From Pseudoalteromonas rubra (GTDB taxonomy: Bacteria; Pseudomonadota; Gammaproteobacteria; Enterobacterales; Alteromonadaceae), in contig NZ_CP045429.1 of the NCBI RefSeq assembly GCF_005886805.2, positions 2,760,501-2,824,500 on the forward strand: a DNA stretch of 64,000 nucleotides, in the 5' to 3' direction. This document shows positions 3,453 to 36,629 of this stretch, piece after piece (position 1 is the first letter of the stretch; each line of letters starts with the position of its first letter). A model generated the notes under the pieces. That model was not told the DNA's origin and ran no database searches. It was given only the letters and a program-made list of their open reading frames with translations. The translations under genes and the position numbers were made by a program.

Positions 3453-3614
3453 ATACCAATTGTACTTAATACCAGGTCAATTTGAAGGAGCAAATATGAC
3501 GCTAACGGTGTTAAAGATTTCTTATTTAGAACAACTAAATAGCAAGATTCTTGGCTGGTTACCGACCCTATTTTCTCGCCTCAAAATAGAACGCTTAATT
3601 AAGCCAATTGGTAT
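3453..3614. repeat. MITE-like palindromic-ended repeat
   Basis: A 162-bp block upstream of the sensor kinase is bounded by ATACCAATTG (3453-3462) and its exact inverted copy CAATTGGTAT (3605-3614). Inside is only a short frame with no similarity I recognise. Terminal palindromes with this sequence around AT-rich filler resemble small non-autonomous repeats common in Pseudoalteromonas-type genomes; that link is from general knowledge and no second copy is visible in this window. Confidence 0.5.
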
Positions 3615-23283: not shown

Positions 23284-23484
23284 TTAACGCCTGAGATCAA
23301 AAATCTGTCTAACCAACGGTTTTACTACAACACGCGGTCCCAGCCCCCTTTTGCACGAAACTACTATTAGCCTTATTGAGTAAATACAACAAAGAATGTG
23401 CTATGCGTATACACTATTTAAGGAGCATTAAGTACTGATGCAACTCCACCCCCCAAAACGGTACAGCCCGTCAAATTTCAAAGG

Positions 23485-23695
23485 TACCCACCAGTAAATT
23501 CACAAAACAAAATAAACTTGCTCGTCTAGCCAAAATTCAGATTTCGGGTGGGTGTACATACAAACATGATTTAGCAATCTGATTGTTAGTCTAAACCTCT
23601 CGCAGATCACCTTCGGCTAGGTATCTAAAGCCTAATGGCTATTCGAGACTATAAGCGTAGACTTCGTTGCAAAAGTACGCCATGTTTAGGAGGAA
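23485..23695. repeat. Degenerate repeat block, copy 1
   Basis: Shares GTAAATTCACA (near 23494) and GTTGCAAAAGTACGCCAT (near 23667) with the block at about 29300-29645. The 3' part GTAGAC...TACGCC also aligns with about 28450-28560. The origin is unknown; copies abut IS10-like fragments. Confidence 0.5.
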
Positions 23696-23699
23696 TGTC

Positions 23700-23835
23700 G
23701 CTTATTTTGCACTCGGCACCTAGACTCGGCTAAGGGGTAATACGACGAAGCAGTTATGTTATGGCAGAGAAGCAATTGCACAGGGCTATACGTACATACA
23801 AACGCTTAGGAGGCTTCGGTTATGAGGCCCCCCAG
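23700..23835 (+). mobile_element. IS10-like element, right-end remnant
   Basis: The segment aligns with the last ~135 bp of the larger copy at 32787-34096: CGACGAAGCAGTTATGTTATG matches the transposase 3' end and the end reads TATGAGGCCCCCCAG, finishing at 23835. The rest of the element is missing. Confidence 0.6.
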
Positions 23836-23950
23836 CGCTATGATAATCGCCAGACTTTTCTGGGTTATTTGCCTGCGCAGAGTAAGCAAAAACAGTACAG
23901 TAAAATTTCCCAATTAGTCAGCTTATTAGCTATAGATTAATACAGACTAA

Positions 23951-24658
23951 TTATTTTGGTTCATTGATAATAGTTAGTATAGGCCTTTCGTTAATTGCTG
24001 TGTACTTTTGGATTGTTAAAGTATCAACAGATTTCTTCAAAAAAGATTTAAAATTCAATAAATCATTTTTTTCTACTGCCTTTTTTATATTTTCACTGTC
24101 ATGCTTAAATTTATAAACGATCCAGTTATAATTATGTAGAACTTGTTCTTTTGTTTTCACATCAGTAACTTTAAAATTTAGCCATCCGTATAGCCCTGAT
24201 TGAGAAACTAGGTTTGTACTTGCCTCTACATCTGTGATGTACACTTCAACTAACAAAACTTCACCTTTTTCTTTTAAATCAGCCAAAATTTTATTTTTTA
24301 TTTCTTCATTCTCTTTGGATTTCTGAGGCGACATGATGTATTTTTTCACCTCAGATGAATCGATGAAATTTGAAACCTCTACTGCATTAAAGCCATTTTC
24401 ATTAAAGTAGTTACTTAGATAGGGACTCATGTCCCGCTCTAGATCCCAAACGCCCGAAAATTCAGAGCCTTTACGATCTTCATGCAAAAAACCCTCTTCC
24501 GTATAATTTATTTTGTATTCTGGAACATAATACAGAACAACTAAAGAAGTATCTTTCTCAAGAACAGGAGTATCCAAAAGGTTAGTTTTAGCTGTAGATG
24601 CACAACCACTTAATATTGTAAAAATAAAAACCGTTGACAATACTTTAAGAAAGCTCAC
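23951..24658 (-). CDS. Predicted lipoprotein, unknown function (cassette gene)
   Basis: The 235-residue protein has a lipoprotein signal (FIFTILSGCAS, lipobox LSGC at residues 16-19). The body is rich in Lys, Glu and Asn, with DLERDMSPYLSNYFNENGFNAVEV and a KGEVLLVEVYITDV segment, suggesting a mixed alpha/beta periplasmic domain. I do not recognise the family. The GTG start overlaps the stop of the upstream lipoprotein gene by 4 nt, so the two are translationally coupled and probably function together. Its base composition is AT-rich compared with the flanking core genes, as expected for integron cassettes. Confidence 0.7.
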   Translation of the reverse strand: MSFLKVLSTVFIFTILSGCASTAKTNLLDTPVLEKDTSLVVLYYVPEYKINYTEEGFLHEDRKGSEFSGVWDLERDMSPYLSNYFNENGFNAVEVSNFIDSSEVKKYIMSPQKSKENEEIKNKILADLKEKGEVLLVEVYITDVEASTNLVSQSGLYGWLNFKVTDVKTKEQVLHNYNWIVYKFKHDSENIKKAVEKNDLLNFKSFLKKSVDTLTIQKYTAINERPILTIINEPK

Positions 24659-25020
24659 TTACTACCTCTTTCACATTTAATTACTATATTATTTTCGTTC
24701 ACGATACATGATAAATCGAAATTTTCCTTGGATTCAACGTCCCAAACGTTAGCTCCTGAAATATAATTACCATTACCCAGTGGTGTTGCCGTTGGAATAT
24801 ACACACGAGTAAAATCATTTCCATCTTTGTAGCCATACAATTTATAACTCTTTGACTCGGCTGTTCCCTCAATAATTTTCGACGGTAAACCGATCGACTC
24901 AACTAATTCAGCAACGGTTGTTTCACCGTATCTTACTTTTAAATTTGAATATTCGTTTGTATCAAACGAGCTGGAACAGCCCGAAATGGCTAGAAAGGTT
25001 AATATAGATAGGTACTTCAC
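24655..25020 (-). CDS. Small predicted lipoprotein, BamE/SmpA-like (cassette gene)
   Basis: A 121-residue protein with lipobox ISGC (Cys at residue 15). The segment LKVRYGETTVAELVESIGLPSKI resembles the start of SmpA/OmlA (BamE-like) folds, where a GxTxxEVxxxLGxP motif is typical; the rest is not diagnostic. It is followed with 4-nt overlap by a second lipoprotein gene. Upstream of the start, at about 25049-25057, AGCTAACGC looks like a cassette core half-site that is then interrupted by the left end of an IS10-like remnant. Confidence 0.7.
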   Translation of the reverse strand: MKYLSILTFLAISGCSSSFDTNEYSNLKVRYGETTVAELVESIGLPSKIIEGTAESKSYKLYGYKDGNDFTRVYIPTATPLGNGNYISGANVWDVESKENFDLSCIVNENNIVIKCERGSK

Positions 25021-25064
25021 TTTTCGATTTTCTCCTTAGATTGACAAATAGCTAACGCCTTGCT

Positions 25065-25362
25065 CTTAGGAGCCCCCCAGATATTTATATTTAAAATCAG
25101 TATGATGGACACTTACGGCTTTGTTGGATCGAATTTATTTCACCAAAAACCCACCAAATAACAACACATAAGTGATAACCCCAGTCTACACGATATGCCC
25201 AAAAAAAGCTGCCACCAAATTAATACTAGCCATCTTTTTTCATCGAAGATGGCAACTGAGATTTTGCTAGATAGCAATCAACTTTCATTTGCTGAGCCGG
25301 AGCGAAATATAAAGAGCCCTGTCACTGCCAAGCTCAATATCAAACGTATGGGCCGACCATGG
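25065..25362 (+). mobile_element. IS10-like element, left-end remnant
   Basis: Starts CTTAGGAGCCCCCCAG, equivalent to CTGAGGCCCCCCCAG of the larger copy, and aligns through the transposase N-terminal coding part (GATAGCAATCAACTTTCA, CGTATGGGCCGACC). The N-terminal transposase sequence is deleted in places and stops are present. The right part is missing. Confidence 0.65.
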
Positions 25363-25434
25363 AAAATGTAATCCACTTTTAAGTGGATGTCGCCTTTTTC
25401 TAGGGCGGGTTGTGCATACTTTTTACCCATCTTG

Positions 25435-25698
25435 TTATGTGTTTTTACGGCTTTGCTTTAATGCACCGAAAACTGCCACCAACAACATGGGTAGTACCGT
25501 GAAGTCTAGCACGAACGCTAACGGCCAAAATGCCTTGTATGGCCCAAACCACAATCCCAGAAACAATAAAATTGCACCAACATAGGGCACAAATGAAGTG
25601 CTACCATTTCTAAAAATAGCGGAGAAGTACGCATACCAATTACTGAGGCCTATAAAAGCACCCAGAATAATCAAACTTAGAAGGAGTAAGGAGTTCAT
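25435..25698 (-). CDS. Small membrane protein, unknown (cassette gene)
   Basis: 87 residues, almost all hydrophobic: three predicted TM helices around residues 3-20, 35-52 and 58-78, ending with a short basic tail KQSRKNT. No family recognised. The stop codon TAA lies inside GTTATGT (25434-25440 on the plus strand), which fits the outer half-site of an attC, so the gene is placed like a cassette gene. Confidence 0.6.
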   Translation of the reverse strand: MNSLLLLSLIILGAFIGLSNWYAYFSAIFRNGSTSFVPYVGAILLFLGLWFGPYKAFWPLAFVLDFTVLPMLLVAVFGALKQSRKNT

Positions 25699-25952
25699 TT
25701 AAATCTTCATTTTCAGACAAGACACATAGCGATCGCTTAGCCAACTCAAAATATCAGACTAAATTAGCAACAACAAAACGCAAGCCTTCTGTTTTACCCC
25801 TGTAGGTTGCAGCGCTTTTGATAGCCAAATTAGACCAAGTTTTTTTATTGATCTCTGACGCCACAACCATTCCCGTATAAGGCCCAATTACTAAACCGCT
25901 TACGCTGAGTACCTAAACAACTTTACTTTTTTAGGCGCCTGTTATGTACCAA

Positions 25953-26243
25953 TTACTCGGAGGTTTCAAACTCAAAGCCGCCTACCTTTTTGGCGACCAA
26001 GTTGTAAACCCAACAAAACAAGCGCTGCATAAAGTAAAACATAACCCCATAAAATACGGGTGCAAAAGCGAAAAATAAAAATGGAAAGTTTGGGATTTGT
26101 TCTCCATTGTTGGTCTTCATTTCTGGAGCCATTAAGAAGAAAAATATGGATATAAAGCTAAACGGCAACATTAAAATTGCTAACGTAATTGCGAACACTT
26201 TGCTTGTCTGATGACCAGATATATTTGTGATTTGAATTTTCAT
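25953..26243 (-). CDS. Small two-TM membrane protein, unknown (cassette gene)
   Basis: 96 residues with two TM helices (about 16-37 and 50-72), an extracytoplasmic loop MKTNNGEQIPNFP and a charged C-terminus. I do not recognise it. GTTATGT at 25941-25947, 6 bp past the stop, has the form of an attC outer half-site, but I cannot trace the matching inner half. Confidence 0.55.
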   Translation of the reverse strand: MKIQITNISGHQTSKVFAITLAILMLPFSFISIFFFLMAPEMKTNNGEQIPNFPFLFFAFAPVFYGVMFYFMQRLFCWVYNLVAKKVGGFEFETSE

Positions 26244-26385
26244 AGTAGCCTGTTTCCCCTTTGTATATGACGCCCGTACCTGAGAAACCTCAGATATTTG
26301 TGTTCCGAATCAATAACAGCATTGATTGCTCGAACAGGTAAACCTATACATTGCAATCTAGCATGCAGCTCTGATAATTGGCCTG

Positions 26386-26582
26386 TCATAAGAGACTGTT
26401 TATCTTTGCATACATAAAAAGATACGTAGCAAGCCATAATAATAAAATTACTAAAGCAAAGTAGCCAGCCTGCTCCTTTGAATTTTTGAAGGAAAAAACA
26501 AACCATATAAAACTAACCAGTATGCTAATTACGAAAAGAGGCAGTACATTGAAAGCAAAGGTTATAGCACAAGGTCCATCCC
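26386..26582 (-). pseudogene. C-terminal part of a membrane-protein cassette gene split by ISAs1
   Basis: On the minus strand, directly after the IS end, a frame reads GDGPCAITFAFNVLP, then LFVISILVSFIWFVF and a second hydrophobic helix LVILLLWLATYLFMY, stopping at 26386. There is no start codon on this side; the upstream part is found beyond the IS at 27799-27871. An overlapping 88-codon frame (26240-26506) is less hydrophobic and is probably a shadow. Confidence 0.6.
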
Positions 26583-27798
26583 CAGGGTGAGAGCATGAAA
26601 AATCATTTGCTATTCAGTACCTTTTCAAGGTAGCTCTCGCTTCTAGCTGCTTTCATTTGTTTGGCGCGCACGCCTTTTTGAAGGTCATTTCTTTTTCCAA
26701 TAAATTCAATGATATATGGCGTTTCCCAGCTAATACTTCTGCGCCACCATCTCGACGAATGCGACAACCATCTTCGTTCATAGCAACATCTAAACACCAA
26801 TGAAGACTATTCTCAATGTGCCAGTGAGCGCGAGCAGCTTGTGCCAATCTCTGTGCACTCAACTTTGCGGAGCTAATGTAGTAGCGGTACGTGAATTCAC
26901 CTTTCTTCTGATTATCTGGCTTTCGATAAGACACTATAACGCCAACAGTCCGAAGGTTCGGCCATCGGTGTGTTTCTGGAAGCTGAGTCATATCATGGCA
27001 TACCACTGCGGCCCTAAATTCTTCACGACCACGTTGATAGTCAACCTCGCTTAATAAAGTGTCTGACTCTATTTGCCGTGTCACTTCTGGCAGTAGAAAT
27101 TGCTGAACTTGTTCAAATAGACCACCTTGATTGGCCTTTAGCGCAAGCAAATAGTCAGCTTCTTTTTCCAAAATTTCCTGAGCAATGTCTTTTTGACAGC
27201 CCATCGCATCAACAGTGACCAAACAACTTTTGATTTCGAGCAGCTGAAGCAGTTCAGGGATGGCTGTTATTTCGTTGGACTTCGTGTCTGTTTTACACTG
27301 GCCTAAAGTCACCCCATTTTCGCAGGCAAAAGCACTTACCATGTGAATGGCATCTTTTCTATCTGACTGTTTAAATGAGCCTTTTAGTCTTCTCCCATCA
27401 ATGGCAACAACACTACCGTCGGTGAGTTCGCAACAATGTTGCATCCAACTAGAGAAGCAAGCCTGAAATTGTGCCATATCAATGCGGCTAACAACTCGCG
27501 CAATAGTATCGTGACGCGGTACACCATTAGTCAAAGGCACAAATTTACGCAACCAAGGGAGCCTATCATGGGCAAAATCTTCGACTTCTTCCCACCCTTG
27601 ACAGCCTGCAATCACAGCGCAGACGGTAAGAAATAAAATATCATTCAATTGATGCTTCACTTTACCTTGCTGGCACGGGTCATCAATGGTGGAGAAATAA
27701 TCGAACAATGTATTGGCTTGCATAAACTGGCTGCTTATTCTAAAAAGAATTATAAAATCATAAACTTATGTCAAGGTAAAGTTCGTGATCTTGCCCTG
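26583..27798 (-). mobile_element. ISAs1-family insertion sequence
   Basis: A 1216-bp element bounded by imperfect inverted repeats: CAGGGTGAGAGCATGAA at the left and CAGGGCAAGATCACGAA at the right (13 of 17 identical), ends typical of the ISAs1 family. It carries one transposase gene with a late frameshift. I see no convincing target duplication in the flanks. It interrupts a membrane-protein cassette gene. Confidence 0.8.
26603..27723 (-). pseudogene. ISAs1-family transposase, frameshifted near the C-terminus
   Basis: 356 residues are in one frame (27723 to 26653) with the family hallmarks DPCQQGKVKHQLNDIL, VVAIDGRRLKGS, and the late block HWHIENSLHWCLDVAMNEDGCRIR of the DDE domain. The reading frame then ends in ACAPNK, but the -1 frame continues as GVRAKQMKAARSESYLEKVLNSK, the expected C-terminus, stopping at 26603. 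The break is in a run of five A (minus strand near 26688). It is either a one-base deletion, leaving a truncated protein, or a weak slippage site. The catalytic core is intact. Confidence 0.8.
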
Positions 27799-27871
27799 CG
27801 TTTACAGAGACGATTGGAATTAAGGCTAAAGAAAACATAGAAATATTTTTCATTAATACTTTAATTAGCAT
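27799..27871 (-). pseudogene. N-terminal part of the membrane-protein gene split by ISAs1
   Basis: ATG at 27871 opens a frame MLIKVLMKNISMFSLALIP that runs into the IS end at 27798. It supplies the start and first hydrophobic segment missing from 26386-26582. The start is about 44 bp past the ACATAAC core site of the neighbouring attC, as expected for a cassette gene. Confidence 0.5.
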
Positions 27872-27914
27872 GCTGCCATCGCTGTCTTTGTCCTTTTAAC
27901 TCTACTTAGAGTAG

Positions 27915-28016
27915 ACATAACTCCAACTAAAACGGCCATTAATAGTCGCCAAAAATAAGTGCGCCCTTAAAGAAAGAAGCCAAGGGTATATTGTCCGATT
28001 GAATGTCTTGTTAAAA
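27915..28016 (-). repeat. attC recombination site (integron cassette)
   Basis: Bounded by ACATAAC (27915-27921) and GTTAAAA (28010-28016), about 102 bp, ending at the stop codon of the gene at 28017. Internal matches to the attC at 34452-34553 include AAACGGC, AATAG and TTGTCCG at equivalent positions. Orientation places the core site on the left, for leftward cassettes. Confidence 0.55.
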
Positions 28017-28343
28017 CTATTTGTCAGATACGGCGTAAATCAACTTACACACACCACTATCTGTAGTTCTTACCCAAATCGGATGTTCTGTTGTGTGAGC
28101 GGTTAGCAAAAGTGAATACACAGAGTCATAATTCTTAGAGCTCGGATCTAGTTTAATGTATCCATTACTACCAGCGTCACATGATAATTTTGACTCATCT
28201 CCAGAGGTGCTTATTGTCGTACCGCCATCAGACTCAACAACGATTCTTGTAACTTTAACCCCAGTACAACTCACACCACTACATGTAGCTAAAGCATTAC
28301 CTGAAAAAATTAATGGTAAAAGAAAACAAACACAATATCGCAT
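28017..28343 (-). CDS. Small secreted protein, family A (cassette gene)
   Basis: 108 residues with a signal peptide (MRYCVCFLLPLIFSGNALA) and a mature domain with four Cys. It contains GVKVTRIVVES, a single Cys in KLSCDAGSNGYIKLD, then YDSVYSLLLTAH, PIWVRTTDSGVC and a short tail. The pattern (G-x-I/V ... C ... D ... Y-S-x-L-L-x-A ... V-R-x-T ... C) recurs in the proteins at 29745 and 53048, so these are diverged relatives. Function unknown. Its stop codon abuts the attC at 27915-28016, placing it as an integron cassette gene. Confidence 0.7.
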   Translation of the reverse strand: MRYCVCFLLPLIFSGNALATCSGVSCTGVKVTRIVVESDGGTTISTSGDESKLSCDAGSNGYIKLDPSSKNYDSVYSLLLTAHTTEHPIWVRTTDSGVCKLIYAVSDK

Positions 28344-28694
28344 GCTAACTCCAAAGTTATGACAGCGTTTTAGCGTACATGCCGTTCAAACACCTGCCCC
28401 CAAACCATTCCACTCACAACAACAACCTATACCTTTGTAATATTTGATATCCGATTGGTTGCACTGCCTCTTCCTTGCTGTTCGCATATTCTATCCCCCT
28501 CAATCCTTTGAGTACTATTTGAATAAATGTAGACGGTGTAACTTCCATACGCCAGTTTAGGGTGGAGTTACATTGTCTTGTCAGCCGCCTTGTCTAAAAT
28601 CGACCTCAGCCTCATTGATAAGTGTAAAATACCCCTCATTATCTTCAAGTTGAAGCGATATTGAGATATAAACAGTTTCTCCGTCTTCAGGCTC
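28344..28694. other. Gene-free stretch with a degenerate repeat
   Basis: No supported gene. About 28450-28560 aligns with the 3' part of the repeat at 29300-29645 (TCTTCC, GCATA, TCTAT, CCTCAA, TTTGAG, GTAGAC, TACGCC in order). The GCTAACTCC near 28346 could be a degenerate core site. Confidence 0.4.
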
Positions 28695-29114
28695 TTAGTT
28701 AAAGCCGGCACCAATTGAGAAAGATAGCTTTTGATGTACTTCTTGTGATAGTAAATTTTGTGTTTTCTGGAAGTTATTGACTGCAAGTTCTGAAAGTCTG
28801 AATGTGTATTCTGTTTTTGCAGGTTCGGACGAAAAAAAGCCTTCTTGCGCAGCTATCTTATCCCGTTTTACAAGAATGAGTGGAAATGTAAAATTACTAT
28901 GCCCTCTTTCATTCACTAAACTGAGGCTTAGATTAATTTTTTCCATGTTTAACGTAAAAGGCTCTGACAACCAAATTTTCGAACGAATTTGCGAAGGGTT
29001 TAGCGCGGCAAAACTTTGTTCATCAAAGTTGCGATATTTAAGCATTGTCGAGATCGGAATGCTCGAGCAGCCAAACAAAAATAGTGCTACAAATACAAAA
29101 AAAAGCTTTTTCAT
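28695..29114 (-). CDS. Predicted lipoprotein, unknown function (cassette gene)
   Basis: From ATG 29114 the protein is 139 residues with lipobox LFGC (Cys at residue 17: VFVALFLFGCSS). The body contains SKIWLSEPFTLNMEKINLSLSLVNERGHSNFTFPLILVKRD, a beta-rich pattern, and ends in QKLSFSIGAGFN. I do not recognise the family. About 15 bp upstream of the start, TGATAACTAGCGG looks like a core site, interrupted 12 bp further by the left end of an IS10-like fragment. It is AT-rich like the other cassettes. Confidence 0.7.
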   Translation of the reverse strand: MKKLFFVFVALFLFGCSSIPISTMLKYRNFDEQSFAALNPSQIRSKIWLSEPFTLNMEKINLSLSLVNERGHSNFTFPLILVKRDKIAAQEGFFSSEPAKTEYTFRLSELAVNNFQKTQNLLSQEVHQKLSFSIGAGFN

Positions 29115-29147
29115 TATCTTTCCTTGATTGATAACTAGCGGCTTGTT

Positions 29148-29300
29148 CTGAGGCACCCCGATATATTCACTTTTCAATTCAATATAATAGCTGCACATGA
29201 CATTACTTTGTCTAATTTATTTCGCAAAAAATTCACCATATAGAAACCCCTGCGAGATACCACCATCCTATACGGTATACCTAGAAAAGCTGAATTTATC
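29148..29300 (+). mobile_element. IS10-like element, left-end remnant
   Basis: Begins CTGAGGCACCCCGATATATTCA, matching the left end of the copy at 32787 with several changes, and continues through TCCTATACGGTATACCTAG (IS equivalent TCCTACACGATATGCTCCG). It ends near 29300, where the degenerate repeat begins. Confidence 0.6.
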
Positions 29301-29645
29301 AGAGGCATCCACCCGTAAATTCACAGACCAATATAGACAGGGATAATATAGAAATGCAAGACAATTGGACCCTGCGCTCTTCTACTCTTCCAGTACACCC
29401 CGTGAATGCTCAATAACTTACCCTCGATCCAATCTCGCCGATATAAATATGACTCGCCTGTTACGCGGTCTGTGCCACACAAAAATGTCCAGCAAACACG
29501 CCGGGATATACAGTGATGATATCTAGTACCGGTTAAGCTAACCTGCTTCTTCCCTACAGTTGGCATAGTCTATTAGCCTCAACCCTTTGAGCACGTTCTA
29601 AGCGTAGACATCGTTGCAAAAGTACGCCATTTTTAGGAGGGTATC
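29300..29645. repeat. Degenerate repeat block, longest copy
   Basis: About 350 bp sharing its beginning (GTAAATTCACA) and end (GTAGAC, GTTGCAAAAGTACGCCAT, TTTAGGAGG) with 23485-23695, and its 3' part with 28450-28560. No coding potential that I can support. Confidence 0.5.
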
Positions 29646-29744
29646 GCCTGCTTTCCTCTGCATAAACATCCTATGTGTTAATGCTTCAACCAGCAGAAAA
29701 TAAAAGTGTGGCGAGTCTTTTTCCGCCGAGCTGGCCTGTTGTTT

Positions 29745-30083
29745 TTAGTTTGTAGTAATGTAAGCATGTCTCAAATCTTCTGAGGCAGTTGCCAGTGAAC
29801 AACTGCCGGTACCACCTAGTGTTATTTGTTGTTTACCTATTTGAGCTGCTAACAAGATTGATAGCATATTTTTGCCTTCAGGAGTCGTAGCATCAAAACT
29901 GAACTTCCATGATTGTGTACCACATGTTTGATTACTAACGTTCCCATTTACTTGAATTTGGCATAATGGAGAAACGTGCTTTGTATGGCAAACCACTTGT
30001 TTAATGGTACCCGTAAAACTTGCTCCAGCCAGTGAATGGAAAGACAATAAAATAAAAAGTGAAAAAAGTGACAGTTTTTTCAT
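29745..30083 (-). CDS. Small secreted protein, family A (cassette gene)
   Basis: 112 residues: signal peptide MKKLSLFSLFILLSFHSLAGA, then GTIKQVVCHTKHVSPLCQIQVNG, a CGTQSWKFSFD block, NMLSILLAAQIGK, and ITLGGTGSCSLA. The order of hydrophobic strand, central Cys, LLAA helix and C-terminal Cys is the same as in the proteins at 28017 and 53048, though identity is low. It is on the cassette strand; ATAACC 24 bp upstream of the start is a possible degraded core site. No function can be assigned. Confidence 0.7.
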   Translation of the reverse strand: MKKLSLFSLFILLSFHSLAGASFTGTIKQVVCHTKHVSPLCQIQVNGNVSNQTCGTQSWKFSFDATTPEGKNMLSILLAAQIGKQQITLGGTGSCSLATASEDLRHAYITTN

Positions 30084-30447
30084 TTGTACTCCCCAAAAAA
30101 TAATAACCTAATGGCTTTATATGGGCCAATTCCGGTCTCCAAAGCCATTCAAAACATAATTAAAAATAGTGTAACCCTAAAAATAAAAATATCCACCTCA
30201 TAGAATTTTTTTCAAAGGCATAGGCTGGCACATAGATACTTGAGCGTTCTCGCATCATCAAGACTGAACAGTGCCATAAAACATCAATAACATATGGTTA
30301 CCTGGATTTGAGCAACAAAACCAGATAACATTTGTACCTTTTAAAGATGCTATCCATATGAAAATTATGCGTCACTTTTCATTGTCGTCGCTAAATCATT
30401 GTCGGACGCTTGCTTCACTCACTTTAAAATAATAAGGGATATAGATT
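30084..30447. other. Divergent intergenic region
   Basis: 364 bp of AT-rich sequence between the leftward secreted-protein gene and the rightward pectate-lyase-like gene. It must hold both promoters; I find no clear operator or attC. Confidence 0.4.
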
Positions 30448-31917
30448 TTGAAACGCAGAGATTTTATAACTAGCGTAGCTGCGATTGCTGGTACAGGGGG
30501 AATACTAGGCTTAAAAGCCCATGCTACTGAGTTACAAACTGGTACCCGAGATACCTCTCAGATTGCAAATGTCATTGACTTTGGTGCAACAGGTGATGGC
30601 AAAACGAATGATACAGAAGCAATGAGAGCGGCACATGCAACCGGAAGGATTGTCTATTATCCCGCGGGTGAATATAGATTTACATCTCTTGAAATGCGAA
30701 CGGGTGGGATCATAGGTGAAGGCAAGAATACGATCCTCACCTGTACTGATTCTGGAGAGCAACACGCAATTACGCATACTCTTGAGGATCCTGACAGCGT
30801 ACTCATTAACGAAAGAGGCGCGCTGTTTAGAGATTTTTTACTTCGCTATGAAAATGAACAAAAAAATGGTACCGGTATTAACCTCATCCCATCAAAATTT
30901 TCTGATGGTAACCCAGTTGAAAATTATACTTCTTATATATCAAATGTAACTATACGAAATTTTTCAACCTGTATCAAAACGTCACTTGTTTCTTATATGA
31001 ATATTGAAAATTGCTATTTCGTCAACTTTCGAGATTTCGGTATTCACTCTGACATGAATAATGAAACATTTGCCGACAACGGTGATAATGGTTTTATAAA
31101 CAATTACTTTTTTACATCACCGAAATATTCGAATGCGATTTGTGTAAGATACAGAGCTGGCGGGCTTCGCTTTATTGGTAACAAAGTAAACGGTGGGTTA
31201 ATTGGTGTCGATATCAGTCCTAATCAAAGCTCTTCTGTCGTTTTAATTAATAGTAACAGTATAGAGAACCAAACAAATACAGGCATACGCTTTTTTGTTT
31301 ATCCTGAAGATACAGCTGCTCGGGAGTTTGGTCGAATCGTTATCGCCAACAATCAGCTTAATCTCGCCGCTACCGAAGGCTCCGCGATATCAATCAATTC
31401 GCAGGTAAACGACTTCAAACTAAACGACGTCAACATCACTGGAAATACGATTTATGCGGCCAGAACATCCGCAAACCTCATCGACTTACGAGGAGTTGAT
31501 CGCTTTAATGTGGTTGCTAACCAATGTTATGCGCACGCAGCGGCCTCCAGCGGAGTTTATGTCCATGCAAATTGCAGCAATGGTAATGTTGAAGCCAACT
31601 CAATTATGGGCACGGCTTTGGGAGAGGTAATTAACTACAGCGACACGGTGACGGTTAATGGCATTAAAGCAAAGGTTACGGAGCGTATTCTGCTACCAAC
31701 GCTTTTGGCAGGTGAGGTATATGAGGGACAAGTCAATATACAGCAAGCCGGCTTCAGCGATGAGTGTATTGTGTTATGGAATATTGATGGCCAGGGACTT
31801 GACCTAAAAGCTTGGGTTTCCAGCCCCGGACAAGTCAAATACCGAATTGCAAACTCAACAGCGAATGACTTTGCCTCAACTGAGGTCGCTCAAACATTTG
31901 TAATCAGGCGAGTTTAG
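30448..31917 (+). CDS. Tat-exported pectate-lyase-superfamily (right-handed beta-helix) protein
   Basis: 489 residues. The N-terminus KRRDFITSVAAIAGTGGIL is a twin-arginine signal. It is followed by NVIDFGATGDGKTNDTEAMR, the standard opening of the Pectate_lyase_3 beta-helix family (phage tailspike and GH28-like proteins), then repeated short beta-helix rungs with many Asn (for example NNYFFTSPKYSN and VLINSNSIENQ). A distinct C-terminal domain starts near residue 410. It probably binds or cleaves polysaccharide; no catalytic residues can be assigned. It uses a TTG start with AAGGG upstream and points against the cassette genes, suggesting separate acquisition. Confidence 0.75.
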   Translation: MKRRDFITSVAAIAGTGGILGLKAHATELQTGTRDTSQIANVIDFGATGDGKTNDTEAMRAAHATGRIVYYPAGEYRFTSLEMRTGGIIGEGKNTILTCTDSGEQHAITHTLEDPDSVLINERGALFRDFLLRYENEQKNGTGINLIPSKFSDGNPVENYTSYISNVTIRNFSTCIKTSLVSYMNIENCYFVNFRDFGIHSDMNNETFADNGDNGFINNYFFTSPKYSNAICVRYRAGGLRFIGNKVNGGLIGVDISPNQSSSVVLINSNSIENQTNTGIRFFVYPEDTAAREFGRIVIANNQLNLAATEGSAISINSQVNDFKLNDVNITGNTIYAARTSANLIDLRGVDRFNVVANQCYAHAAASSGVYVHANCSNGNVEANSIMGTALGEVINYSDTVTVNGIKAKVTERILLPTLLAGEVYEGQVNIQQAGFSDECIVLWNIDGQGLDLKAWVSSPGQVKYRIANSTANDFASTEVAQTFVIRRV

Positions 31918-31929
31918 TCCCCTGAAAGG

Positions 31930-31958
31930 CGTCACCCAAAATCACTTTGGGTGGCTTT
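31930..31958 (+). terminator. Terminator after the beta-helix gene
   Basis: CACCCAAA, loop of five, TTTGGGTG form an 8-bp stem 13 bp after the stop codon; the following tract is only moderately T-rich. Confidence 0.6.
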
Positions 31959-32021
31959 AGTTCCTGTCAGCTTGGGTGGGTATCATCCAGGTTGTTTTTT
32001 CAGGTCAATAAAAAACCACCA

Positions 32022-32741
32022 TCAGCGCTTTACCTCATACCAATTCTTGTCGAGATATTCTTTTTCACCTCCGAGTATGGCTCTCTTTACACGGCACGGA
32101 TTACCGAATATACGAACAAAATGCCAATCTCCGAATTCGTCAAATTTTCTGCAGGACGTTGTAATTGACTCGTTTGAAATAATTTTGTGCTGTTTTCCAG
32201 ATTTACGCCCATGCAATTTCAGCCTGTGCAAAAAATCCACATCTTCTGCTATATGCCGTTGCTCATCGAACCCCCCAATTGCATCGAAGTCCGTCTTTCG
32301 GAACCAATACATACCAAAAGAGAGGCCAAGGAAAAAAGCAGGCACTAACATCATACCGTAGCCTACTGCTATTCCAGGAGACAACCTTTCTGGCTTAATG
32401 CGTATACCGCCACCTATACAATTTGGAGATTTCGCATGCTGATATATTGTGTTTAGAACTCCTTTGGACATCCAACTATCGGCATCAATCGTCACAATCC
32501 AATCTGACGTAGCATACGCTACGCCAGTATTTTTTATTGATGATAGATTCTTTGAATCATCTGCAACTACGATAGCCCCAAACGATTTTGCTATTTCGCC
32601 TGTCTTATCAGTGCACCTGTTTAAGACAACGATTGTTTCGACCTCCATTTCCTGAGGAATAAGCTGATCCTTGATTGATGACAGACACCGAGCGATATAA
32701 CTTTCTTCGTTGTGGGCTGGAATAACTACACTGATTTTCAT
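32022..32741 (-). CDS. Family 2 glycosyltransferase (cassette gene)
   Basis: 239 residues with the GT-A fold opening SVVIPAHNEESYIARCLSSI, the DxD-like WIVTIDADSW motif (about residue 87), and IGGFDEQRHIAEDVDFLHRL with the ED(V/L) acid. This matches short GT2 enzymes that transfer sugars to polysaccharide or lipid carriers in the cytoplasm. There is no membrane anchor beyond a hydrophobic stretch VGYGMMLVPAFFLGLSFGM. The start is about 31 bp left of a GTATAAC core half-site, placing it as an integron cassette; no other sugar-pathway genes accompany it. Confidence 0.8.
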   Translation of the reverse strand: MKISVVIPAHNEESYIARCLSSIKDQLIPQEMEVETIVVLNRCTDKTGEIAKSFGAIVVADDSKNLSSIKNTGVAYATSDWIVTIDADSWMSKGVLNTIYQHAKSPNCIGGGIRIKPERLSPGIAVGYGMMLVPAFFLGLSFGMYWFRKTDFDAIGGFDEQRHIAEDVDFLHRLKLHGRKSGKQHKIISNESITTSCRKFDEFGDWHFVRIFGNPCRVKRAILGGEKEYLDKNWYEVKR

Positions 32742-32771
32742 TTCATGCTACTCCCTATGATGCTCTTACAT

Positions 32772-32786
32772 GTATAACGCTTTAAT
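32772..32786 (-). repeat. Left part of an attC split by an IS10-like element
   Basis: GTATAACGC directly precedes the IS left end at 32787. Joined to the sequence after the IS (34097 on) it recreates an attC start like ACATAACGC...AAACGGC of the intact site at 34452. Confidence 0.5.
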
Positions 32787-34096
32787 CTGAGGCCCCCCCA
32801 GATATTCATATTAAAAAGCAGTGAGATGGACGCGAACGACATCGTATGAACTAATTTGTTTGGCCAAAAACCAAATAAACAACCACACCATGCGTGATAC
32901 TTCCATCCTACACGATATGCTCCGAAAAAAAATGCCTAAATTTCATACTCTGCATCTTGATCGATTAACGCTGGCAACTGAAACATTGCTCGATAGCAAT
33001 CAACTTTCACGCACCAAGATGGGCCGAAATATGAAGGGCCCTGCCGCTGCCAAGCACAACATTAAACGTATGGACCGACTGCTTGGCAACACCGCTATGC
33101 ATAACGATCGACTTGCTATTTACCGTTTCCATGCGCGCCTGATATGTGACGCTAACCCCATGCCTATTTTGCTGGTCGGCTGGGCCGATGTGCGCGAACA
33201 ACTGCGGCTGATGACTTTGCGAGCTTCCGTCAGCATTCAAGGACGCTTAATGATAGTGTATGAGCGCATCTCCTAAATCCCATCAGCTGTTCCTTGATGA
33301 ACTTGCCATTATCCTTCCATAGAGGGCCTGCCTGATAAATGTATTCCACTCATCGTGACCGATGCTGGCTATCGAAACACCTGGTTTCGACAGGTCAATA
33401 AAAAAGGTTGGTTCTGGCTGGGGCGGGTGTGTGGCAAAGTCACTTATCAGCATAAAAACAGCGAAGATTGGCATGTAAATCAGGCACTTTATCCATCCGC
33501 CACTCCCCGTGGACGTTACATTGGAGAGGTAAAACTTGGCCGAAAAAACCCTATCAACTGCCACCTTCATTTATATAAAGCCAAACAAAAAGGCCGTACT
33601 GATAAACGCTCTTCAAAAGCTGGCAGGCATCATACCGCACAAAAAAGTTATCGAACTGGCAGTAAGGAGCCCTGGCTATTAGCCACTAACCTGCCCGCTG
33701 ACTTATTCAAACCCAAACGTGTAGTCTCACTTTACGCCAAGCGCATGCAAATCGAAGAAAGCTTTCGAGACCTGAAAAGCCCCCAATACAGTATGGGCCT
33801 GAGACATAGTAAAAGTCGATGCCCCAACCGGCTCGATATACTGTTATTACTCTCTTTGCTGGCGACCATTATTCTCTGGTGGATCGGCCTGTATGCTCAG
33901 CACTCAAATTGGCAACGAAAGTTTCAGGCAAATACCATCAGAGATCGTGCTGTGCTGTCGATTGTCAGGCTTGGCAAAGAGGTCTGGCGACGAAGCGATT
34001 ATGTTATGACGGGGAAGCAACTACTCTGGGCTATACGCGAATACGTGCGCTTGATACATCGGCTTGGGAGGCCTCAATTATGAGGGGATCCCCCAG
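32787..34096 (+). mobile_element. IS10-like (IS4 family) insertion sequence, nearly full length
   Basis: 1310 bp. The right terminus read inward is CTGGGGGATCCCCTCATAATT, matching the IS10 end CTGATGAATCCCCTAATGATT at most positions; the left terminus is CTGAGGCCCCCCCAGATATT. The flanking 9-mers CGCTTTAAT and CGCCGCAAA are only similar, so no clean target duplication remains. The transposase is frameshifted, so this copy cannot move on its own. Confidence 0.75.
32890..34083 (+). pseudogene. IS10-like transposase pseudogene
   Basis: The N-terminal part (MRDTSILHDMLRKKMPK ... ASVSIQGRLMIVYERIS) and the C-terminal part (VTDAGYRNTWFRQVNKKGWFWL ... RMQIEESFRDLKSPQYSMGLRHS) match IS10 transposase throughout. 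Between them, near 33270-33345, the frame changes twice: KSHQLFLDELAIILP is in a second frame and about nine residues equivalent to FPLSEQCSK are missing. The DDE residues and YREK-like signature (YAKRMQIEE) survive, but no continuous protein can be made. Confidence 0.8.
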
Positions 34097-34195
34097 CGCC
34101 GCAAATAAACGGCAAAAATTAGTTGGCTAAAATTTGTGAGGTACGAACAAGGCCAACTGATTTTTGTCCGCACTTTTTTATTTGCTTTGTTATGT
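34097..34195 (-). repeat. Right part of the attC split by the IS10-like element
   Basis: CGCCGCAAATAAACGGC, AGTTGGCT/GGCCAACT arms, TTGTCCG and terminal GTTATGT (34189-34195) match the attC at 34452-34553 in order. It lies immediately after the stop of the gene at 34200. Confidence 0.6.
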
Positions 34196-34199
34196 GGCT

Positions 34200-34442
34200 T
34201 TACTTCCTAGTTGTTGGATCTGTTAACACCAAATTTTTAAAGTAGCTGATAGCCTCGTTAATATCTTGGAATGATTTATGATTCATCTTTTGTCCGCGTT
34301 CATAGTAAAACACCTCAATCTCACTTTGAGCATCGTATATACAATAACCTTCTAACATTGGTAGTTCATCGATGCCAACAATGCTTTTGTAAACTTTTTT
34401 CTGAACTAGATACTTCTTCAGAGCGACTAATTCTTCACGCAT
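34200..34442 (-). CDS. Small cytoplasmic protein, unknown (cassette gene)
   Basis: 80 residues, no signal or TM helix. Segments such as MLEGYCIYDAQSEIEVFYYERGQK and FQDINEAISYFKNLVL resemble single-domain immunity-type proteins that are frequent in integron cassettes, but this is a style resemblance only. The start is 9 bp left of the ACATAAC core of the next attC and the stop is 4 bp from the GTTATGT half-site, the classic tight packing of a one-gene cassette. Confidence 0.65.
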   Translation of the reverse strand: MREELVALKKYLVQKKVYKSIVGIDELPMLEGYCIYDAQSEIEVFYYERGQKMNHKSFQDINEAISYFKNLVLTDPTTRK

Positions 34443-34451
34443 TCAATTGCC

Positions 34452-34553
34452 ACATAACGCTGCCATAAACGGCATAAAATAGCTGGCTAAACTTAGCGAC
34501 GAAGGAGCACAAGCCAGCTGTTTTGTGTCCACGGTTTTATGGCCTTGTTAGGT
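34452..34553 (-). repeat. attC recombination site (best preserved)
   Basis: Bounded by ACATAAC (34452-34458) and GTTAGGT (34547-34553). Inner arms pair: GCCATAAAC with GTTTTATGGC (one bulge) and AGCTGGCT with AGCCAGCT (perfect). The 102-bp length and imperfect stem fit attC structure. It sits between the cassette genes at 34200 and 34571. Confidence 0.75.
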
Positions 34554-34570
34554 GAACTTATTTGTATTGG

Positions 34571-34957
34571 CTAGAATTCAACTCTAATTCCATACTTTTC
34601 TTCACAAGACTCGATGATTTCTACCATGTCTTGCATGCCAGATATAACTGTTTCTGAAGGCCTGGGAGGACCATTTTTAAGCATTTCTTCCATGTTTCCC
34701 ATTACTGAATTTGCTAGTTTGGCATATTCACTTAGTGCATTGCTAAACTCTGAATACTTCGCAGGCTCCCATTTCTCTTGAGCTATTTTTGCGGTGCATT
34801 TACATAGCTTTTCTAGTTTTTCATATTCATCTTCATTGGTAGGCGCAATTAAGAACTGTAGGTTCTGTGAAACACTCTCTAACTCACTCAAGTTAACTTC
34901 CTTAGCATTCAAAATTGGGGATAACAGCATAATAATTATTAAAGTAATAGTTTTCAT
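34571..34957 (-). CDS. Small secreted protein, unknown (first cassette gene)
   Basis: From ATG 34957 the protein has 128 residues, with signal peptide MKTITLIIIMLLSPILNA and a helical mature part with three Cys (LCKCTAK and ESCEEKYG). LEKLCKCTAKIAQEKWEPAKYSEFSNALSEYAKLAN suggests a helical bundle. I do not recognise the family. It is the cassette closest to the integrase relic, with the core site ACCTAAC (34973-34979) 16 bp upstream of the start and its attC directly downstream. If any integron promoter is active, this gene would be the first expressed. Confidence 0.65.
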   Translation of the reverse strand: MKTITLIIIMLLSPILNAKEVNLSELESVSQNLQFLIAPTNEDEYEKLEKLCKCTAKIAQEKWEPAKYSEFSNALSEYAKLANSVMGNMEEMLKNGPPRPSETVISGMQDMVEIIESCEEKYGIRVEF

Positions 34958-34972
34958 TGGTATCTCATGTTC

Positions 34973-35200
34973 ACCTAACAATTTATTCTACTCCAAAATG
35001 TCGGAACATAAACCGACAAAACGGACTGTATTACATACCCACATAGTCCCACGGAACAAATTCAAAGTAAACAATCGGTTGCAACCTGTCAAAACACACT
35101 GGTGCAAAAATTGGACAAAACGGCGTGTAATAATATTATTGGACAATAGCCAAAAAAACTGTACATAAATCCAGTGTCAACTTTGCCAAATGGAGCGTCC
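34973..35200. other. attI-side junction and integrase upstream region
   Basis: ACCTAAC at 34973-34979 (GTTAGGT on the cassette strand) is a perfect core site and marks the junction between attI and the first cassette. The next 220 bp up to the intI start should contain the rest of attI, the cassette promoter and the intI promoter; I cannot define these elements individually. Confidence 0.55.
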
Positions 35201-35413
35201 ATGACATCACCTTTCCTGCTCATGCTGCAAAAACAAATGTGCCTAAAGCGTTACGCCAAACGCACCATTGAAGCGTATTTAAAATAGATTGCCGCATTTA
35301 TCCGCATTAATGATATGCGACACCATACAACTATGGAGGATAGCGAAATTGAACTATTTCTTAACCACTTGGTAAATTGCCAGAATGTTGCTCAGGGAAC
35401 GCAAGCACACATT
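35201..35413 (+). pseudogene. intI: Integron integrase relic (N-terminal ~70 codons, in-frame stop)
   Basis: From ATG 35201 the translation reads ...LKRYAKRTIEAYLK, stop, IAAFIRIND, MRHHTTM, SEIELFLNHLV and VAQGTQA. This aligns with the N-terminal domain of IntI proteins (VchIntIA RYYAKKTIEAYLHW; IntI1 WVRAFIRFHGVRHPATL). Codon 29 is TAG where Trp is conserved, a single-base change. The homology ends after GTQA, about residue 70 of about 320; the catalytic domain with the RHRY residues is gone. It is divergent from the cassettes, as intI should be. Confidence 0.8.
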
Positions 35414-35444
35414 AAAAAGCCCGACTAAACTAGCCGGGCTTTGT
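35413..35444 (-). terminator. Terminator after the oxidoreductase gene
   Basis: AAAGCCCGGCTAG and CCGGGCTTT-type arms (AAAAAGCCCG at 35414-35423, CGGGCTTTG at 35435-35443) form a hairpin with A/T runs on both sides; it may work in both directions and abuts the intI relic. Confidence 0.7.
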
Positions 35445-35467
35445 TAACTCATAAATATCGTGTCAGT

Positions 35468-36475
35468 TTAATCGCGGGTAATGCGGATCACCGGGCGTTG
35501 CTGGCAAGTTTTCCCTAGCAAACAACTTAGCGCATCGCGGACGGTGTCAACACTAAAGTCGAGCAATTTAACCTCAGGTGCCTTGATGCGGCCATTGCTT
35601 ACATCATCAAGCAGCTGACGGCCCATAAAGCACAAATGCTGCTGGGCACACAGGCTGTTGGCCATCCAGGCGCCAGCGACTGAGACCACCCCAATATTGG
35701 GCGCTTTCTCAAAAAGTAGTTCTTCCGGAATAGTGCCAAAGCCATTCAGACAAGCGATCCGACCACAGAATCTCAGATGACGCAGATCATTCAAGAAGGA
35801 GTCGCCGCCTTGTGTATTCAGGATACAGTCAAAACCACCTGGCCCCATTTCTCGCTTGATCTGTTCGCACACCGACTCAGATTCGCAATCGAATACCCAG
35901 TCTGCACCAAGTTTATTCAGTCTCTTGTGGTGTTCTTTCTGTGCAAAAGCAAACACCTGAGCACCGCGCTGTTTGGCATATTGCACTGCAAAGTGAGCTA
36001 CGGCACCCTGCGCGCTGTTTATGGCCAGTGAGTCACCGTCCTGCACCTGCATTTTATCCAGTGCCAGCAAAGCTGCCATCCCCGCATTGGGTAAAGACAC
36101 TGCCACTTCGCCGCTCATGCCATCCGGTACTTCCGACACGGCGTGGCTGGGTACAACTGCGTACTCTTTGAGCATCCCCTGCTCTGCCAGACTGGCATTA
36201 AACAACACCCGACTGCCTTTAGGCGGAAATACCCCTTTAGCAGCTGAGACCACAGTTCCGACGGCATCCAGTCCCAAAACGTGAGGATACTGCCACTGGC
36301 AAAATCCGTCTTTTGCCATCCGTGCATCCAGGTGATTCAGTGCCACATAATCAATGGCAACCAGTAACTCGTTGTCTCCCGGCACTGGCATAGCGTGCTC
36401 TGCCATCGCTAAGTCAAACTCGGCGCCACATTGACGCAGTTCCAGCGCTCGCATGGTGGATTTTTCGACTGACAT
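35468..36475 (-). CDS. MDR-family zinc-independent alcohol dehydrogenase / quinone oxidoreductase-like
   Basis: About 335 residues. GroES-like N-terminal domain (DYVALNHLDARMAKDG, YPHVLGLDAVGTVV) and a Rossmann domain with LAINSAQGAVAHFAVQYAKQRGAQVFAF, equivalent to the AxxGGVG nucleotide-binding loop of quinone oxidoreductases. The usual zinc ligands are missing, so NADPH-dependent reduction of quinones or enals is likely. ATG 36475 (MSVEKSTMRALEL) has GGAG upstream; a 9-residue longer start is less likely. It stands alone beside the integron's integrase end. Confidence 0.85.
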   Translation of the reverse strand: MSVEKSTMRALELRQCGAEFDLAMAEHAMPVPGDNELLVAIDYVALNHLDARMAKDGFCQWQYPHVLGLDAVGTVVSAAKGVFPPKGSRVLFNASLAEQGMLKEYAVVPSHAVSEVPDGMSGEVAVSLPNAGMAALLALDKMQVQDGDSLAINSAQGAVAHFAVQYAKQRGAQVFAFAQKEHHKRLNKLGADWVFDCESESVCEQIKREMGPGGFDCILNTQGGDSFLNDLRHLRFCGRIACLNGFGTIPEELLFEKAPNIGVVSVAGAWMANSLCAQQHLCFMGRQLLDDVSNGRIKAPEVKLLDFSVDTVRDALSCLLGKTCQQRPVIRITRD

Positions 36476-36629
36476 GAGTGGTTTTCTCCGCTTTTCGGCC
36501 ATTTTGAGGCCTGACTGCCCATAATTTTAACTTTCCGATTATGGGCAAAACTTCGCAATTGTTGCTATTAAACCATCTTGGTCTCTGTCAAACAACTCAA
36601 TGTTGTGACAGGTGTTTAAATCCTGTTAA

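Follow-up and report, generated by a model that had tools for sequence, protein, structure and literature searches.

A remnant chromosomal integron in Pseudoalteromonas rubra and IS10-group elements with a preference for attC sites

The mobile elements named as targeting the attC sites of integrons are the IS1111-attC elements and the group IIC-attC introns in the sources consulted (PMC9229058, PMC11187229, PMC12444791, PMC8876359), one of which also describes clusters of attC without an integrase (CALINs) as common in Shewanella (PMC9229058). A 64,000-nucleotide stretch of the Pseudoalteromonas rubra genome was analysed here (the window; C1:2760501-2824500 of the host genome G000, 5.94 Mb in two contigs). 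It holds an integron remnant at 23.7-35.4 kb, at the locus of a TonB receptor and an alcohol dehydrogenase, together with insertion sequences (ISs) of the IS10 group (IS4 family). The remnant itself is real and ordinary; the part worth following is the attC-homing IS10 lineage. Very probably, the array decayed both by loss of the integrase IntI and by splitting of its attC sites by elements of an attC-preferring IS10-group clade.

Like chromosomal integron remnants and CALINs, the locus carries attCs, small leftward cassettes mostly of no known function and a broken or absent intI; it differs from them in that a stub of intI survives alongside the attI-side core and that a single kind of IS interrupts several of its attCs. 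Published descriptions of the IS1111-attC group (IS110 family) give it the same choice of one end of attC (PMC11187229, PMC12444791) and a DEDD transposase (PMC11187229), whereas the window-type element has an IS4-type DDE transposase and 9-bp target duplications. Group IIC-attC introns also insert at attC (PMC9229058, PMC8876359); they are retroelements with a ribozyme, whereas here a DNA transposase is found and the Rfam scan of the window gave no match. The IS1202-family elements that target pdif likewise keep a constant spacing and a single orientation relative to the core of a tyrosine-recombinase site and make a short duplication, but they differ in IS family, in recombination site and in their 5-bp duplication (PMC10132070). 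The Shewanella survey reports that no IS interrupting attC was found (PMC9229058); unlike that statement, a Shewanella marisflavi copy (L131), flanked by a perfect duplication, occupies an attC-type site. With IS10 (IS10A) and ISVsa5, the window-type elements share a transposase 49-51% identical, the 9-bp duplication and the end CTGA..ATCCCC. IS10 is not known to home on attC, and no report of an IS10-type attC-targeting element was found in the literature searched, which lay outside ISfinder and most subscription papers.

Integron remnant at the dehydrogenase locus

An attC covariance model (R1) was built from nine attCs of two other arrays of the genome, none of them from the window. The seeds were collected with a regular expression; earlier searches by core pairing and folding were too noisy. 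The consensus structure of these nine sites contains 22 pairs, and double changes support 13 of them. The window was scanned with filters off, and the three attC sites proposed in the first-pass annotation were recovered (Table 1), with 15.9 bits for attC 1 on the opposite strand and 13.7 bits for the best unrelated background match. The third site is not significant alone at genome scale; its position abutting the stop of ORF 28017-28343 counts in its favour. The attC described there as split by an IS is indeed interrupted by one, at 32787-34096, and the tight packing of genes is correct (9 bp at 34442/34452; 4 bp at 34195/34200). A second split attC, the left ends at 25065, 26280 and 29148 and the right end at 23835 had gone unmentioned. 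The array comprises three R1 matches, the third weak, and two split sites.

The proposed intI relic matches the integron-integrase model TIGR02249 at 35213-35407 on the plus strand (E 6.7e-16, model positions 1-65, one in-frame TAG). Its residues 1-69 are 80% identical to the intact 325-aa IntI of a relative (G033, L119) and equally to a 295-aa IntI of another (G044, L123), a copy short of about 30 residues, whereas identity to L118 and L121, which represent a different type of IntI, is only 36-39%; the relic and L119/L123 are referred to as type B, and L118/L121 as type A. The integrase at the locus is an N-terminal relic only, clearly of IntI, and the perfect attI-side core GTTAGGT is present as annotated. 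Three intI copies were found in the genome, none intact in the present assembly. The type-A gene heading the large array (C1:2625675-2626779; 95-98% identical to those of relatives) is broken by an insert of about 160 nt that follows residue 222, and a type-B gene at C1:1273625-1274554 contains two frame changes. The insert breaking the type-A gene is a copy of a repeat of about 162 bp with the ends TACCAATTT/AAATTGGTA (L009 10326-10487, about C1:2626325-2626486); since a second copy, 86% identical, lies at window 3453-3614, the repeat looks like a small mobile element.

The dehydrogenase adjoining the relic is 96-98% identical in all eight close relatives. The distance between the TonB receptor and the dehydrogenase is 12.2 kb in the window versus 3.3-8.5 kb in G061, G044, G059 and G033; the two genes are on separate contigs in G041, G036 and G083, where contig ends lie 1.5-7.4 kb from the dehydrogenase, and G087 is without a close receptor. 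The locus is common to species of the Pseudoalteromonas rubra group. The G044 genome aligns to window 34976-36600 (attI side, relic and dehydrogenase) at 88.9% DNA identity and has the same truncated relic, and G061 keeps window 25468-26275, with two ORFs, at 88.4% (flanks 91.6-91.8%). The sharing of the relic with G044 and of this stretch with G061 indicates that the truncation and at least these ORFs are older than the species splits, and that the decay of the integron is old. The intact intI that the first-pass annotation suggested looking for at this locus was found in none of the eight relatives, and six of them (all except G044 and G087) showed no intI there. A 20-aa scrap of type-A IntI was observed beside the same dehydrogenase in G087 (L111 18132-18194), which suggests that two IntI types may have occupied one place in different species.

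The IS in the split attC has the ends CTGAGG... and ...CCCCCAG, and its target duplication matches at 5/9 letters. The transposase of the near-intact G059 copy scores 374.6 bits with NF033591 (cut-off 152), an IS4-type DDE enzyme; no solved structure was found for it by sequence. Left ends of the group stand at four of the six recognisable attC places of the window (25065, 26280, 29148 and 32787, of which 26280 is weak and 29148 is two letters off the motif), in keeping with an array that became frozen through these elements and through the loss of IntI. The earlier description of a decayed chromosomal integron frozen between IS elements stands as regards the decayed integron with surviving cassettes, given the attC matches and the IntI relic, the two checks that it named. 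The IS10-type elements, however, lie inside the attC sites rather than framing the array, so they are a likely reason why it became frozen.

A DNA search of the genome with the IS gave 11 stretches, all on one strand, 10 of them within 3 kb of an R1 match. The attC R' core as read on the IS strand, TAACGC, precedes in register five of the six left ends listed; a seventh match begins inside the element. The genome scan with R1, which scored 150 of 696 candidates, gave at least 49 matches down to E 10, at least 29 of them in the large array (C1:2587476-2624897). This array has the broken type-A intI at its head and at least three IS10-group relics inside. Further attC clusters were observed without a listed intI nearby (C1:1181234-1184888, C1:1657966-1659204 and C2:1028017-1028963); those on C1 lie on the plus strand below 1.7 Mb, apart from one weak match at 889435, and on the minus strand above 2.4 Mb.

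Target sites of the IS10-group clade

Copies in other genomes were collected by searching named genomes once for similar transposases, without regard to attC; this gave 79 loci, of which 56 were examined. Both ends were mapped in 38 copies (11 from Pseudoalteromonas, 27 from other genera); one-ended loci were excluded, as were L129 and L130 (duplicates of L060 and L062) and L149, L161 and L180 (no recognised left end). At most three candidates per genome were scored in Pseudoalteromonas, so that copy counts are lower bounds. TAACGC with up to one mismatch stands in register at 30 of the 38 copies, 29 in one orientation and one reversed; the chance rate of the motif in the same DNA is 0.56% per position (1170/210504). 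An R'' core lies 60-115 nt beyond the other IS end in 25 of these 30 attC-type copies and in none of the other eight. Matches to R1 (E <= 0.01) were obtained at 13 of 19 foreign attC-type loci, versus none (E <= 0.1) at the eight other loci. The motif was also read by eye at 11 of 15 one-ended loci with a recognised left end. Among 29 unique Pseudoalteromonas left ends, 20 pass in the fixed register, two look mis-registered by eye (own 2595838 and L221), L209 is reversed and six fail. The genomes of the same genus repeat the pattern, R1 matches touching the right ends of the ISs. Elements at attC-type sites were found in 12 genera of marine Gammaproteobacteria, with the least certainty in Oceanisphaera, where the R'' core is lacking.

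The transposase tree was built from 37 sequences (L161, L176, L178, L180 and L194, shorter than 250 aa, were dropped). All 26 attC-type sequences fall in one group of 31, together with five that are not attC-type. The attC label requires six changes on the tree, and none of 500 shuffles did as well. Preference for attC follows lineage, leakily.

The duplication matches at nine or eight of nine letters in 19 of the 38 copies. Nine attC-type copies have a perfect 9-bp duplication, and in every one of them the repeated 9-mer starts right after TAA (in L209 on the other strand). IntI cuts at this TAA^C edge, on the strand carrying RYYYAAC. The core site may happen to satisfy an IS10-like target rule by accident, or the elements may genuinely exploit it. 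Strict orientation is excluded by L209, reversed and with a perfect duplication. The heptamer TAACGCY alone is unlikely as the target, being found outside arrays at 282 per Mb (34 in 120500 bases). Joint movement of an IS and its attached attC as one unit was also rejected: among 28 chosen IS-free attCs, the IS-attached attC of the window is 97% identical to one (L211:648-752), and it is no closer to IS-attached ones.

At least eight letters of the duplication match in 12 of the 30 attC copies versus seven of the eight others. Slow decay as the source of all the mismatches is ruled out by two G061 copies (L209 and L210), 99.85% identical, one of which has a perfect duplication and the other 5/9. 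The contrast makes recombination in the array the likely cause, and the concentration of mismatches at attC suggests the same; in a study of the Vibrio cholerae integron, homologous recombination between IS copies is on record (PMC11023631). The use of an IS end as a core by IntI is a bolder alternative.

The proposed course of decay is as follows. A chromosomal integron was reduced to a truncated intI, an attI-side core and cassettes with attC sites. IntI was lost, its local copy being cut short and both remaining copies of the genome broken, and attCs were split by IS10-group elements of the attC-preferring clade. Almost all insertions share one orientation, and their 9-bp duplications have one constant edge, at the TAA^C bond of the R' core; the transposase itself probably recognises attC. 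Each insertion separates the R' core from the hairpin, so that the site should stop recombining and the neighbouring cassettes should become fixed; inactivation of attC by the IS is thus predicted.

Cassette cargo and further repeats

The genes of the row run leftward, as first annotated, except for the pectate-lyase-like gene, which points rightward and had not been mentioned. The Pfam scan of the ten cassette ORFs named the glycosyltransferase; the 96-aa ORF gave matches below cut-off only, and the other eight gave none or none above cut-off. Comparison of 10 ORFs with the PADLOC defence models gave one weak match (E 0.0082, type I specificity subunit, in the glycosyltransferase) and none convincing. 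The lipoprotein cassette (window 28698-29114) has a relative in Alteromonas indica (L139 1948-2364; 80% aa identity), and in both genera the left end of an IS10-group element sited at attC lies 34 bp before its start; as the IS ends differ, these look like separate insertions. A repeat at window 29410-29645, with a scrap at 23652-23693, has seven further genome copies at 71-77%, one of which overlaps a 323-aa ORF whose match to an IS200-like transposase is weak and falls below the cut-off.

Table 1. Features of the integron remnant in the window (window coordinates).
Feature	Position	Strand	Basis
intI relic, N-terminal 69 residues	35201-35407	+	TIGR02249 match; ends before the terminator of the dehydrogenase gene
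attI-side core GTTAGGT	34973-34979	-	Sequence
Cassette 1 ORF, 128 aa, secreted-looking	34571-34957	-	ORF; no Pfam family above cut-off
attC 1, whole	34452-34553	-	R1 83.9 bits, E 2.8e-19
Cassette 2 ORF, 80 aa	34200-34442	-	ORF; no Pfam family above cut-off
attC 2, hairpin part, R' core parted off by IS	34097-34195	-	R1 66.4 bits, E 1.3e-14, over 34091-34190
IS10-group (IS4 family) element of 1310 bp with a disrupted transposase frame	32787-34096	+	86.5% identical to G059 copy with 403-aa transposase; DDE_Tnp_1
R' core side of split attC (TAACGC + 6 nt on + strand)	32772-32786	-	Sequence
Glycosyltransferase family 2 ORF, 239 aa	32022-32741	-	Pfam PF00535, E 6.6e-23
Pectate-lyase-like gene, TTG start, opposite to cassette direction	30448-31917	+	Pfam PF12708, E 1.1e-9
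ORF, 112 aa, secreted-looking, no attC recognised	29745-30083	-	ORF, Pfam scan
IS10-group left-end relic, preceded by TAACTAGCGG (two mismatches to core motif)	29148-29288	+	74.6% over IS 1-142, E 1.6e-23
Lipoprotein-like ORF, 139 aa	28695-29114	-	ORF; 80% identical relative beside another such IS, Alteromonas indica
ORF, 108 aa, secreted-looking	28017-28343	-	ORF, Pfam scan
attC 3, degenerate	27915-28016	-	R1 23.0 bits, E 0.0048 in window, E 0.45 at genome scale
ISAs1-family transposase	26653-27723	-	NF033564, 408 bits, cut-off 70
TGACGC core-like site, then weak IS10-group left-end scrap from 26280	26268-26315	+	75.7% over IS 1-37, E 0.13
Small membrane ORF, 96 aa	25953-26243	-	Conserved in G061 (93.8% aa); Pfam matches below cut-off only
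Small membrane ORF, 87 aa	25435-25698	-	Partly conserved in G061 (92% over 64 aa)
Second split attC: R'' at 25439, R' core 25053-25059, IS10-group relic 25065-25357 between	25051-25440	-	IS-end match and sequence
Lipoprotein-like ORFs of 121 and 235 aa that overlap	23951-25020	-	ORFs, Pfam scan
IS10-group right-end relic, then CGCTATGAT, no attC recognised beyond	23722-23835	+	66.4% over IS 1199-1317, E 3e-10

Competing explanations and meaning

Several observations weigh against decay of the array by IntI loss and attC-preferring insertion. In the window, several genes have no recognisable attC, and the left end at 29148 misses the core motif by two letters; elsewhere in the genome, one IS stretch (2488010) sits 11 kb from any R1 match. 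The preference is leaky, eight of the 38 copies lying elsewhere, and near-identical Shewanella elements are found both in attC (L131, L137) and outside it (L160). One copy (L209) is reversed, the clade support of 90/81 is below the starred level, and mismatched duplications are found in 18 of 30 attC copies versus one of eight others. The five copies without an R'' core (Alteromonas lipotrueiana, Aliagarivorans, one of Shewanella algidipiscicola, Oceanisphaera and one of Agarivorans) may not be at true attCs. Transposition is deduced from the sequences.

That the locus is no integron, but small genes and inverted repeats that happen to be lined up, is hardly credible: the weak third attC, the genes without a recognisable attC and the one gene in opposite direction would agree with it, and it is contradicted by the independent attC model matches and the intI relic. 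It is also quite unlikely that the elements have a loose IS10-like 9-bp preference and land widely, the attC copies being survivors in the harmless spacers of idle arrays. The IS10 target rule (NGCTNAGCN) does resemble CGCCNNNNN, and the eight copies outside attC would be expected; survival, however, would scatter copies over all spacer positions, whereas one bond and one orientation (29/30) were found, and TAACGCY is common outside arrays. Similarly unlikely, in our view, is that the ISs reached attCs mainly through IntI, being carried with the adjacent cassette once inside an attC, with the IS end as a makeshift core. This would account for the excess of mismatched duplications at attC, even in a copy nearly identical to a perfect one, for the R1 matches to attC hairpins whose R' place is an IS end, and for the same lipoprotein cassette behind such an IS in Alteromonas indica. 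Against it, the 6 nt between core and IS vary among copies, the nine perfect duplications represent real transposition into attC, recombination between IS copies accounts for the mismatches equally well, and the Alteromonas indica IS, with its different ends, looks like a separate insertion.

Beyond the preferred reading of IntI loss plus attC splitting, a more far-reaching proposal, which we regard as rather unlikely, is that a widespread IS10-group clade uses the scissile bond of the integron, with strand transfer at one IS end directed to the very phosphodiester that is cleaved by IntI (TAA^C, attC bottom strand). The transposase may then read the folded attC or the IntI-cut site, the IS end may serve as a makeshift core by which IntI carries the IS with cassettes, and arrays would at once sustain these elements and be destroyed by them.

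An element splitting attC at the crossover bond would offer a direct, testable route by which integron arrays could become immobile and still retain their cassettes. If confirmed, the clade would add another type to the elements that target attC, and its DDE transposase would be notable for an unusual target, entered with a bias in orientation.

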